Notes under the pieces: generated by a model
What the model was told of the DNA's origin: nothing
What the model saw: the letters and a program-made list of their open reading frames with translations, nothing else
The model's database searches: none
Part shown: one piece after another, positions 50,322 through 53,802 of the stretch
How positions within the stretch are numbered: the stretch's first letter is position 1
Layout of the letters: every line of letters starts with the position of its first letter
Made by a program: the position numbers and the translations under genes
NCBI RefSeq assembly: GCF_017875465.1
Contig: NZ_JAGGMQ010000001.1
Location: 496,001-560,000, forward strand
DNA: 64,000 bases
DNA from: Winslowiella toletana
GTDB lineage: Bacteria > Pseudomonadota > Gammaproteobacteria > Enterobacterales > Enterobacteriaceae
Reading direction: 5' to 3'

Positions 50322-50397
50322 TCCTCTGTAGTTCAGTCGGTAGAACGGCGGACTGTTAATCCGTATGTCACTGGTTCGAGTCCAGTCAGAGGAGCCA
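50322..50397 (+). tRNA. tRNA-Asn (anticodon GTT)
   Basis: 76 bases. Acceptor stem TCCTCTG pairs with CAGAGGA, followed by G and encoded CCA. The anticodon loop CTGTTAA carries GTT, and the T loop is GGTTCGAGTCC. nac and cbl also neighbour tRNA-Asn genes in E. coli. Confidence 0.97.
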
Positions 50398-50404
50398 TAC
50401 ATAG

Positions 50405-50439
50405 AAAAGCCCGCTCAGGGAAACCTGAGCGGGCTTTTT
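50405..50439 (+). terminator. Terminator of tRNA-Asn
   Basis: AAAAGCCCGCTCAGG-GAAA-CCTGAGCGGGCTTTTT: long perfect stem, GAAA tetraloop and T run, 7 bases after the CCA end. Confidence 0.95.
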
Positions 50440-50512
50440 GCTGTCTGTTCGTTCATCACTATCTCGCCAACAACCGGATGCAGGCACTCTGCTTCATCCA
50501 GCCATTTACCTC

Positions 50513-51025: not shown

Positions 51026-51907
51026 ATGAAATATAGACCCCTTTTTGCATGGCTGTTATCCATCTTGCTGTTTGCCGGTGCGGCTTGTCCCCTCACCGTC
51101 ACGGCCACTGAACAGAGTGTCAGCTGGGGCCAGCGCTGGCAGCATCTGCCGCCAACGCCTGCGCCGGTCCGTGGCCTGAAAACCGGCTACGCCAAAGTGA
51201 ACGGCATAGATCTCTATTACGGTGTGATCGGCAAGGGTTCGCCGGTAATCTTTATTCACGGCGGGCTGGCGAATTCTGATTACTGGGGCAAGCAGGTGCC
51301 GGTGATTGCCCGCAACCACCAGGTGATCGTGCTGGACAGCCGAGGCCACGGTCGCAGTACGCGCAGCAGCCAGCCTTACGGCTACGATTTGATGACCGAT
51401 GATGTCGTGGCGTTGATGGATCATCTGCATCTGCAAAAGGCAGATATTGTTGGCTGGAGTGACGGCGCGATTATCGGTATCGATCTGGCGCTGCGCCATG
51501 CCGGACGCATCAATAAAGTCTTTGCTTTCGCGCCCAATACCACCACGGCGGGCGTACGCGCCGACGTCGCTGAAAATCCGCTGTTTGCCTCCTATATTGC
51601 CCGCGCGGGTGAGGAGTATCAGCGGTTATCCAAAACCCCGGATCAGTACAACAGCTTTGTTGAACAGATTGGCCATATGTGGGAAACACAGCCCAACTGG
51701 AGCGACAGCCAACTGCAAAGCATTCGTACGCCGATTCTGGTGGCCGATGGCGATCATGATGAAGGGATCCTGCGTCCGCATCTGGAGCATATTGCCGCCA
51801 CCATCCCGCAGGCCGGTCTGCTGATTATTCCCAATACCAGCCATTTTGCCTTTATGCAGGCGCCAGATGAGTTTAACGATGCGCTGGTCAATTTTCTTGA
51901 TCGGTAA
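51026..51907 (+). CDS. Exported alpha/beta hydrolase
   Basis: 293 residues. Signal peptide (core about residues 8-22). Alpha/beta-hydrolase fold: oxyanion region IFIHGGLANSDYW, nucleophile S145 in GWSDG, acid D in VADGDHDEG, and His in NTSHFAFM. It probably acts in the periplasm on an ester or lactone; the substrate is unknown. Single-gene unit ending in a terminator. Confidence 0.9.
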   Translation: MKYRPLFAWLLSILLFAGAACPLTVTATEQSVSWGQRWQHLPPTPAPVRGLKTGYAKVNGIDLYYGVIGKGSPVIFIHGGLANSDYWGKQVPVIARNHQVIVLDSRGHGRSTRSSQPYGYDLMTDDVVALMDHLHLQKADIVGWSDGAIIGIDLALRHAGRINKVFAFAPNTTTAGVRADVAENPLFASYIARAGEEYQRLSKTPDQYNSFVEQIGHMWETQPNWSDSQLQSIRTPILVADGDHDEGILRPHLEHIAATIPQAGLLIIPNTSHFAFMQAPDEFNDALVNFLDR

Positions 51908-51914
51908 ATTAACT

Positions 51915-51939
51915 GCCCGCGTTGGTCAGCGGGCGTTTT
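51915..51939 (+). terminator. Terminator of the hydrolase gene
   Basis: GCCCGC / GCGGGC with an 8-base loop, then GTTTT, directly after the stop codon. Confidence 0.8.
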
Positions 51940-52080
51940 ACTTTTCATCACTGTAGCAACCACTCTGCGAGCCCCCTCGACTTTTTAAACTTTCCTGCGC
52001 TGCAACATGTTCAGCGCATAGCCTCCCCTGCTCTGCTGCCGCTAAAATCCTCCGCAAGAAATCGCTGCTGGCATCTTGCA

Positions 52081-52100
52081 TGTACGCCAATACTCGTACA
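52081..52100. promoter_or_regulatory. Operator-like inverted repeat upstream of the MqsR-like gene
   Basis: TGTACG-CCAATACT-CGTACA, perfect 6-bp arms, ending 16 bases before the start codon. A TTGCAT at 52076-52081 and CAAAAT at 52099-52104 could be -35/-10 but would leave a very short leader. It is a candidate site for autorepression. Confidence 0.45.
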
Positions 52101-52116
52101 AAATAATGGAGGCATT

Positions 52117-52413
52117 ATGGGATTCAGGGACGTAAAACGGGAAGCGATACGCTGTCTGCTGGATGGCGCTTATGACCATGAGAACCGTATCAATATCAGT
52201 GTCAAAAATATGTTTGCTACCGGCCAGATTGATCAGGCCGGAGTTATTGAGTTAATCAGGAAAACCAGCGGAGAGGACTATCTCTGCACGCCACACCACC
52301 AGAATGCGGATATTGATGTTCATATCCTCAGACCGTGGAAATCGGGTTGCTACTGGTATGTAAAATTCTACTTTATCGAACCTGATCTTATCTTTATTAG
52401 CGTCCACCGCTAA
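52117..52413 (+). CDS. Small MqsR/RelE-fold-like protein, putative toxin
   Basis: 98 residues from the ATG at 52117 (GGAGG upstream); the longer frame from 51922 has no similarity. The order of helices then beta strands with VIELIRKTSGEDYLCTPHH, IDVHILRP and YWYVKFYFIEPDLIFISVH recalls MqsR (mRNA interferase) and related RelE-fold toxins, but identity is low. It is followed after 18 bases by a zinc-finger partner. Function as a ribonuclease is inferred from this arrangement, not shown. Confidence 0.5.
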   Translation: MGFRDVKREAIRCLLDGAYDHENRINISVKNMFATGQIDQAGVIELIRKTSGEDYLCTPHHQNADIDVHILRPWKSGCYWYVKFYFIEPDLIFISVHR

Positions 52414-52431
52414 TCAGCAAAGGAGTGTTCC

Positions 52432-53031
52432 GTGAGAATTGTAAAAGAAGGCGATACACGCAAAGTGCTCTGCCATCAGTGTGGCCAATCAACGGCAACT
52501 TATCGCTTACGCGATGTCAACTTCAGCGATGGCAGCGGCATGGTAAAAAATATTCTTGCTGGCGTCTGTGATCAGTGTGACGAGGTGGTCAGCATACCGG
52601 CGCAATGTACGCCGCAGATTAAAACCGCGTTTGAACAGCGAAAACTGCCGCTGGAAGTCAGAGTGCCAGCGCACTATCTCGACATTCTGAATGTGGCGAC
52701 GCAGAAGATTGATGCATCGCTAAATGAGGATTTTAATAAGGCGCTGATTCTTTACTACCTTCATGCCCTGACCACCGGCCACTACCCGCAGACACAGCTG
52801 AAAATGCTGTTAAGCAGCGACCTTGCGGATGCCAAATCATCAAAACGTATTTCGATGAAAGTCAGTCAGCGGCAGCTGGAAGAGTTAAATGCAATTATGC
52901 AGCAGCAAAGCATGAAGAAGAATTCTGATGTGGTAAAAGCGGTGATTCTGAAGATCCATGAAGACATTATTCAGGAGAAAAATCTGGCTGTACTGCCCGA
53001 ACTGCGCGGTGTCGCCGCCGCGTTTGGCTGA
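52432..53031 (+). CDS. MqsA-like zinc-finger protein with two RHH-like repeats, putative antitoxin
   Basis: 199 residues starting at GTG 52432 (AGGAG 6 bases upstream). The N terminus has a YgiT/MqsA-type zinc finger: C14-x2-C17 and C46-x2-C49. Instead of the Xre-like helix-turn-helix of MqsA, the rest holds two segments with ribbon-helix-helix periodicity: about 73-113 (LEVRVPAHYLDILNV then NEDFNKALILYYL) and about 138-180 (KRISMKVSQRQLEEL then NSDVVKAVILKIHED). Two such units in one chain could act as a built-in dimer on DNA. No gene follows on this strand; a hairpin marks the end. Confidence 0.5.
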   Translation: MRIVKEGDTRKVLCHQCGQSTATYRLRDVNFSDGSGMVKNILAGVCDQCDEVVSIPAQCTPQIKTAFEQRKLPLEVRVPAHYLDILNVATQKIDASLNEDFNKALILYYLHALTTGHYPQTQLKMLLSSDLADAKSSKRISMKVSQRQLEELNAIMQQQSMKKNSDVVKAVILKIHEDIIQEKNLAVLPELRGVAAAFG

Positions 53032-53035
53032 CATC

Positions 53036-53066
53036 GACAGGTATGCGCTTAACGCCCATACCTGTC
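53036..53066. terminator. Hairpin between converging genes
   Basis: Perfect 10-bp stem GACAGGTATG / CATACCTGTC between the zinc-finger gene and the IclR gene. It has no U tract, so a bidirectional but weak terminator is likely. Confidence 0.5.
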
Positions 53067-53076
53067 AGGAGTAACC

Positions 53077-53802
53077 CTATGCGCCGCTCGCCGCACCAAG
53101 CACATGCGACAAGCCTTGCGCCGCCTCCAGCAACAGTTGCTGCGTGGCAGCCTCTTCCGGGTTAAAACGGCTGGTAGGACCGGAAATACTCAGCGCGCCA
53201 GCCAGCTGGTTGTTATGTTTAAACACTGGCACCGTTATCGACGCGGTCAGCAGGCTGTTGGTTTCCAGCCGGTTGAGACCCGCGCCGCTTGAGGTAAACA
53301 CACCATCCTGATAACGCCAGCGCGCAGGCATTCCCTGTTCAAACTGGCGCAGTACGCTGGCAGCGGAGGTATCGTCCATTGCCAGTAAGGTCCCGACCGG
53401 TACACTGGATTTAATATGTTGCGGCGAGTCTTTGCGCAACAGGCACATACGAAAATCACCATCACGCACATAAAAAGTGCTGCTCTCCAGCGTCGCGGCG
53501 GTCAGTTTTTCCAGTACCGGCATCACATGGCGGTGCAAATCAAAGGTGCGCTCGTAGACACACCCCAGCTGAAACGCGCGGGAGCCTAATTCATAGCATC
53601 CGTCCGCGCGCTTAAACACATAGCGCTCGGCTTCCAGCGTCAGCATATAGCGCAGAATCACGCTCTTAAACAGACCGGTTGCCGCTTCGAGTTCACCCAG
53701 CGTAATCCCGCCCGGATGTGGAATAAAAGCATCAAGGATCGCCAGCGTGCGCTTAACCGCTTTGACCGAACGATCGACATCAGTACTCTTTTGTCTCGAC
53801 AT
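53077..53802 (-). CDS. IclR family transcriptional regulator
   Basis: 241 residues. Winged helix-turn-helix with AVKRTLAILDAFIPHPGGITLGELEAATG and KSVILRYMLTLEAERYV, then the IclR effector domain ending ITVPVFKHNNQLAGALSISGPTSRF. Located at the 3' end of the amino acid transport and hydroxyacid operon, which it probably regulates. A palindrome near the operon start (60600-60614) is a candidate target. Confidence 0.9.
   Translation of the reverse strand: MSRQKSTDVDRSVKAVKRTLAILDAFIPHPGGITLGELEAATGLFKSVILRYMLTLEAERYVFKRADGCYELGSRAFQLGCVYERTFDLHRHVMPVLEKLTAATLESSTFYVRDGDFRMCLLRKDSPQHIKSSVPVGTLLAMDDTSAASVLRQFEQGMPARWRYQDGVFTSSGAGLNRLETNSLLTASITVPVFKHNNQLAGALSISGPTSRFNPEEAATQQLLLEAAQGLSHVLGAASGA

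Follow-up and report, generated by a model that had tools for sequence, protein, structure and literature searches.

The closest described relatives of the gene pair analyzed here are the MqsR toxins and their partners. In the available text of the respective sources, the catalytic residues of MqsR are given as Lys56 and Tyr81 (PMC9636575), and in MqsRA the toxin removes the antitoxin from DNA because their binding sites overlap (PMC4803016). The partners of MqsR described in such text are a zinc domain joined to a helix-turn-helix (HTH), the PanA-type antitoxin (zinc domain-HTH-Panacea), of which the zinc domain alone is reported to neutralize the toxin (PMC10440598), and an HTH-GepA fusion paired with a YgiU(MqsR)-like protein (Makarova 2009, PMC2701414). 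An MqsA-type finger or zinc domain joined to a (tandem) ribbon-helix-helix (RHH) fold and accompanied by an MqsR-fold toxin was not recognized in the open-licence PMC literature, as far as the available portions of its texts go. Such a pair is predicted in a 64,000-nt stretch of Winslowiella toletana (NZ_JAGGMQ010000001.1, 496,001 to 560,000, forward strand), hereafter the window, within which all coordinates are given. With a probability of roughly 0.8, we consider it to be a type II toxin-antitoxin operon that is sister to MqsRA, comprising an MqsR-fold toxin and a zinc-domain antitoxin in which a single-chain RHH module replaces the HTH.

The pair consists of two open reading frames (ORFs) on the forward strand, separated by 18 nt: ORF1 (52117-52413, ATG start, 98 amino acids), the putative MqsR-fold toxin, and ORF2 (52432-53031, GTG start, 199 amino acids), the putative antitoxin and autorepressor. 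Each is preceded by a plausible ribosome-binding site, identified by eye and on the same strand (TGGAGG at 52107-52112 and AAGGAG at 52420-52425). A first-pass annotation of this DNA had described the order as toxin first, antitoxin second, and ORF1 indeed precedes ORF2 in the window and in the 32 measured loci with both genes intact, 30 of which have a gap of 20 nt or less. The two-gene operon is conserved together. An ORF2-profile scan of genome contigs gave 44 loci, 40 of them with ORF1-related sequence upstream of ORF2 (in one, L037, only a remnant) and four without (L021, L022, L032, L047). The pairwise identities of ORF1 and ORF2 correlate (r 0.91, 496 pairs), a correlation that shared descent alone would also give. 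The co-occurrence of homologues, proposed earlier as a check, was borne out among 169 Pseudomonas genomes, where two separate searches found ORF1 in seven and ORF2 in eight, with all seven common and the genes adjacent (P ~1e-11); the eighth ORF2-bearing genome carries residues 1-77 only. Similarly, the seven plasmid records with ORF1 all fall within the 13 with ORF2. The occurrence is sporadic: among 394 genomes of the order, seven have ORF2 (partial in three), and a phylum sample of 398 genomes has ORF1 in three.

Neither window protein is named by the family libraries. Pfam and NCBIfam hold no model above cut-off for either of them, PADLOC and PHROGs gave nothing better than E 0.02, and the PDB sequence searches, run with single sequences as well as profiles, returned nothing relevant. 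Among 5.8 billion proteins searched, ORF1 had 11 matches and ORF2 had 77, counting those of the window itself, and a 41-row ORF1 profile gave 625 matches at E up to 10 (the best 120 of the 625 were listed). For ORF1, the Pfam MqsR_toxin cut-off was not reached (the window protein is unlisted at E 5), and weak matches to this model were obtained in 5 of 130 rows of the ORF1 alignment, with a best E of 0.0046. Single-sequence BLAST shows no visible relatedness of ORF1 to MqsR (E 2.5), and the NCBIfam scans of the alignment rows brought up scattered unrelated names only. The evidence on ORF1 comes instead from structure: its AlphaFold2 model is confident and the top solved structure is the RNase toxin MqsR, with a clear lead in both structural comparisons, which agrees with the MqsR/RelE-like layout first read from the sequence. 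Tyr81 is kept in 130/130 rows, Lys83 is invariant, and His60, His61, His69, and His97 are near-invariant, a pattern of sequence conservation that suggests an ORF1 active site.

For ORF2, the AlphaFold2 model is also confident. Residues 12-71 (52465-52644, forward strand) match the MqsA zinc domain weakly, with all four cysteines in register; Cys14, Cys46, and Cys49 are invariant in the 72-row ORF2 alignment and position 17 is Cys in 62 of the 72 rows. The rest of the chain holds two RHH repeats, the first at residues 72-115 (52645-52776) and the second at residues 138-180 (52843-52971, with a near-invariant strand K/R-R-x-S-x-K/R), both on the forward strand. The secondary structure of the model is E72-78/H80-93/H101-115 and E138-144/H146-158/H164-180. 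The two segments align with each other gap-free over 34 residues, with a score of 43 that none of 500 shuffles reach (mean 20.7, sd 4.3), and in a second aligner residues 70-193 of the predicted model match chains of the F relaxosome, which we take to be TraY, a single-chain RHH protein. To our knowledge, TraY has no zinc domain or toxin partner. Thus, the first-pass annotation is upheld on ORF2: the C14-x2-C17 and C46-x2-C49 motifs are at the positions it gave and are largely conserved across the 72 rows, its two strand-helix-helix segments (73-113 and 138-180) coincide almost exactly with the elements of the model, and its proposal that the DNA-binding module was swapped for a single-chain RHH pseudo-dimer is supported by the model, the second aligner, and the internal repeat. 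No HTH match, including HTH-Xre, was found for the window ORF2 in the Pfam and NCBIfam scans, with the caveat that 13 of the 72 alignment rows weakly match the finger-HTH MqsA model TIGR03830 (best E 0.014). Among viral models, the top structural match to ORF2 is an unnamed 167-residue phage protein (A0A6J5L2R7, BFVD, E 1.1e-5). The ORF2-type zinc domain was also seen in finger-only frames (L058, L136) and with a different C-terminus in a 132-residue protein (L059), and in a 316-residue relative (P0080) the ORF2-like sequence follows an N-terminal extension that by eye is unlike ORF1.

The inverted repeat TGTACG-N8-CGTACA, reported earlier as lying just upstream of the pair and predicted here to be its palindromic operator, is present at 52081-52100, and across loci its core, TACG-N8-CGTA, is maintained in front of the pair. 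Taken alone, this core is not rare, with 37 sites in the genome of 5.3 Mb. However, 43 of 44 loci have it no more than 120 nt upstream of ORF1, whereas its frequency in the flanks (two sites in 443 kb) predicts ~0.02 such loci, and the enrichment is confined to the 8-nt spacer. The 44 are the window and 43 of 53 loci, leaving out its own copy (L001) and nine loci without a clear ORF1 start; many are close relatives and the counts are not independent. In the sole miss (L024), one base of the core is changed, and the site is present in all nine examined loci that were found via ORF1 in other genomes (L115, L116, L122-L128). In the nine loci without a clear ORF1 start, the region upstream of ORF2 was considered: the exact site is there in L003, L032, and L037, a one-mismatch site only in L022 and L036, and no site in L016 (where the contig ends), L021, L047, and L051. 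The site can thus be retained before ORF2 after the loss of ORF1 (exact in L032, with one mismatch in L022) or where a remnant of ORF1 is left (exact in L037), and this persistence links it to ORF2. The orphan ORF2 at L032:2720-3409, which retains its operator, has the second cysteine replaced by Asp.

A possible promoter, TTGCAT-N17-CAAAAT (52076-52104, forward strand), has the operator core as its 17-nt spacer. A strict sigma-70 scan of 51850-53150 found no promoter match, this one included, so the promoter overlap in the window is placed by inspection. Cleaner forms, TTGACT-N17-CATAAT or CAAAAT, were seen by eye in four relatives (L010, L011, L013, L018), again with the operator core as the 17-nt spacer, which suggests repression by blocking of the polymerase. 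Each half-site contains GTAC, itself palindromic, which would suit a pseudo-symmetric single-chain RHH module sitting on each half.

The two genes also differ in how they decay. Of the 44 loci from the ORF2-profile scan, 29 have an intact ORF1 and 10 an ORF1 with stops, frameshifts, or losses; in one it is truncated by the contig end, and in four it is undetected, whereas an internal stop in ORF2 occurs in 0 of 48 loci and its start is missing in one. The difference in breakage gives a Fisher P of 0.0010, or 0.0023 without L038, which was scored as broken though its ORF1 could start downstream; the loci were found through ORF2, which favors an intact ORF2, and many are close kin. In genomes found through ORF1, the toxin candidate is broken by a stop in 3 of 10 (G126, G1093, G1042) and ORF2 has an internal stop in 0 of 10, two of the three (G1042 and G1093) being, by contig coordinates, the already counted L025 and L033 and thus not a fresh sample. 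The breakage count excludes the three plasmid loci L002-L004, in none of which a complete ORF1 frame was found; L002 has no stop or frameshift, so a non-standard start is possible there. An ORF1 that is often broken beside an ORF2 that stays open is the pattern expected of a burdensome toxin gene held in check by its neighbor.

Set against MqsRA, the E. coli type II toxin-antitoxin system of MqsR (PF15723) and MqsA (PF15731), the pair has the toxin gene first, an upstream palindrome, a toxin predicted to have the MqsR fold with Tyr81 and a Lys two residues on, and an antitoxin that exceeds the toxin in size and starts with a CxxC...CxxC zinc domain. It differs in that ORF2 has two RHH repeats and lacks the HTH-Xre of MqsA, and in that ORF1 has four near-invariant histidines and no equivalent of Lys56. 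As Lys56, the HTH, and a score above the Pfam cut-off are all missing, we regard the pair as a sister to MqsRA and not as a member. It looks like a variant of a familiar toxin-antitoxin type with a DNA-binding half unlike that of MqsA. Like the PanA-type systems (PMC10440598), it combines an MqsR-type toxin with an antitoxin reusing the MqsA zinc domain; however, going by the available text, a domain was added there behind the HTH, whereas in ORF2 an RHH pair stands instead of it. The YgiU/GepA pair (PMC2701414), as its available description goes, likewise joins an MqsR-like protein to a non-YgiT partner, but this partner is HTH-GepA. The F-plasmid TraY is described in the available text of its source (PMC12117103) as having the whole RHH dimer fold within one chain, as predicted for ORF2, but it works in the relaxosome.

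By analogy with MqsRA, ORF1 would be a ribonuclease toxin that the MqsA-type zinc domain of ORF2 binds and keeps away from RNA, while the single-chain RHH module of ORF2 would repress the operon. The two RHH repeats of each ORF2 chain likely fold into a pseudo-dimer on one GTAC half-site, such that two chains would fill TGTACG-N8-CGTACA and block the overlapping promoter. Loss of ORF2 would free ORF1, leading to RNA cutting and growth stop. Since the DNA-binding half has been exchanged, the MqsRA rule in which the toxin breaks repression may not hold for this pair, a possibility that is the most interesting point of the system. At somewhat less than even odds, the change goes further, to a repressor that needs no dimerization step (an RHH pseudo-dimer reading the near-palindromic GTAC half-site in TGTACG) and a toxin that has moved from a Lys/Tyr to a histidine-based ribonuclease site.

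Several observations weigh against the toxin-antitoxin interpretation. The essential Lys56 of MqsR is not conserved in ORF1, where S, E, or Q predominate in the aligned column (residue 56) and column 57 is Lys in 7 of 130 rows; Foldseek alone gives a weak E for the RHH match of ORF2 (E 0.059), and the hhalign probabilities are low. It is possible, though we would not favor it, that the cassette is primarily anti-phage or plasmid-stabilizing, with the toxin-antitoxin pair serving defense or addiction, an explanation compatible with the preferred one. Copies are found on conjugative plasmids and on viral contigs, beside what by eye is an integrase-like reading frame (L049, L050) or near a tRNA-Thr (L053), a hint that integrating elements may carry the pair. 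In contrast, the best PADLOC match has E 0.056 for ORF1, with none for ORF2, and no match was found in 50,697 phage records. Unlikely, in our view, is a regulator pair free of toxicity, with ORF2 as a zinc-domain RHH repressor and ORF1 as its co-regulator (e.g., an MqsR-like metal- or RNA-sensing partner): the replaced Lys56 and the still putative toxicity of ORF1 would fit it, and a palindrome with an RHH protein would by themselves fit any autoregulated operon, but the sporadic, mobile-like distribution, the one-sided loss of ORF1, and the conserved Tyr81, Lys83, and histidines, which suggest an active site, speak against it. Slightly less probable still is that ORF1 belongs to another RelE-like family such as BrnT and resembles MqsR through convergence on a small alpha/beta sheet, given that MqsR is clearly ahead in both structural comparisons and that the partner has the MqsA-type finger with its four cysteines in register.

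In the window, the toxin-antitoxin candidate lies downstream of an alpha/beta hydrolase gene and is followed, on the opposite strand, by an IclR-type regulator and a 2-hydroxyacid dehydrogenase. In the closest relative (L005:1749-4497), the common hydrolase and the pair are separated by 2.7 kb in which an MFS-like gene and a LysR-like gene were recognized by eye; the downstream flank is also unlike that of the window. An island at a tRNA-Asn (50322-50397) was considered, as 49 bases from its 3' end (50394-50442) are similar to a segment immediately preceding the pair in L005, and was rejected, since by eye this common segment is a hairpin terminator. No empty site could be shown; in two genomes of the same genus (G409, G400), the orthologue of the hydrolase that precedes the pair has other surroundings. 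In addition, the same genome has a canonical MqsR-MqsA pair (L067:1483-2182, on contig C1 near 2081129), which coexists with the one described here.

If the interpretation as a toxin-antitoxin operon is true, the zinc domain of MqsA is a portable module for toxin binding, combined here with a different class of DNA-binding fold, and a single genome can host two MqsR-fold systems. If the more tentative proposal also holds, toxin binding by the zinc domain would be uncoupled from DNA binding by the RHH module, and the rule for conditional repression would differ from that of MqsRA. The conserved operator and the two confident models open neutralization, the reading of the operator by a single-chain RHH module, and the altered catalytic residues to direct testing. 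The assignment would also give a name to many proteins that are now mostly called hypothetical, counting the 625 matches to ORF1 at E up to 10 and the 77 to ORF2.
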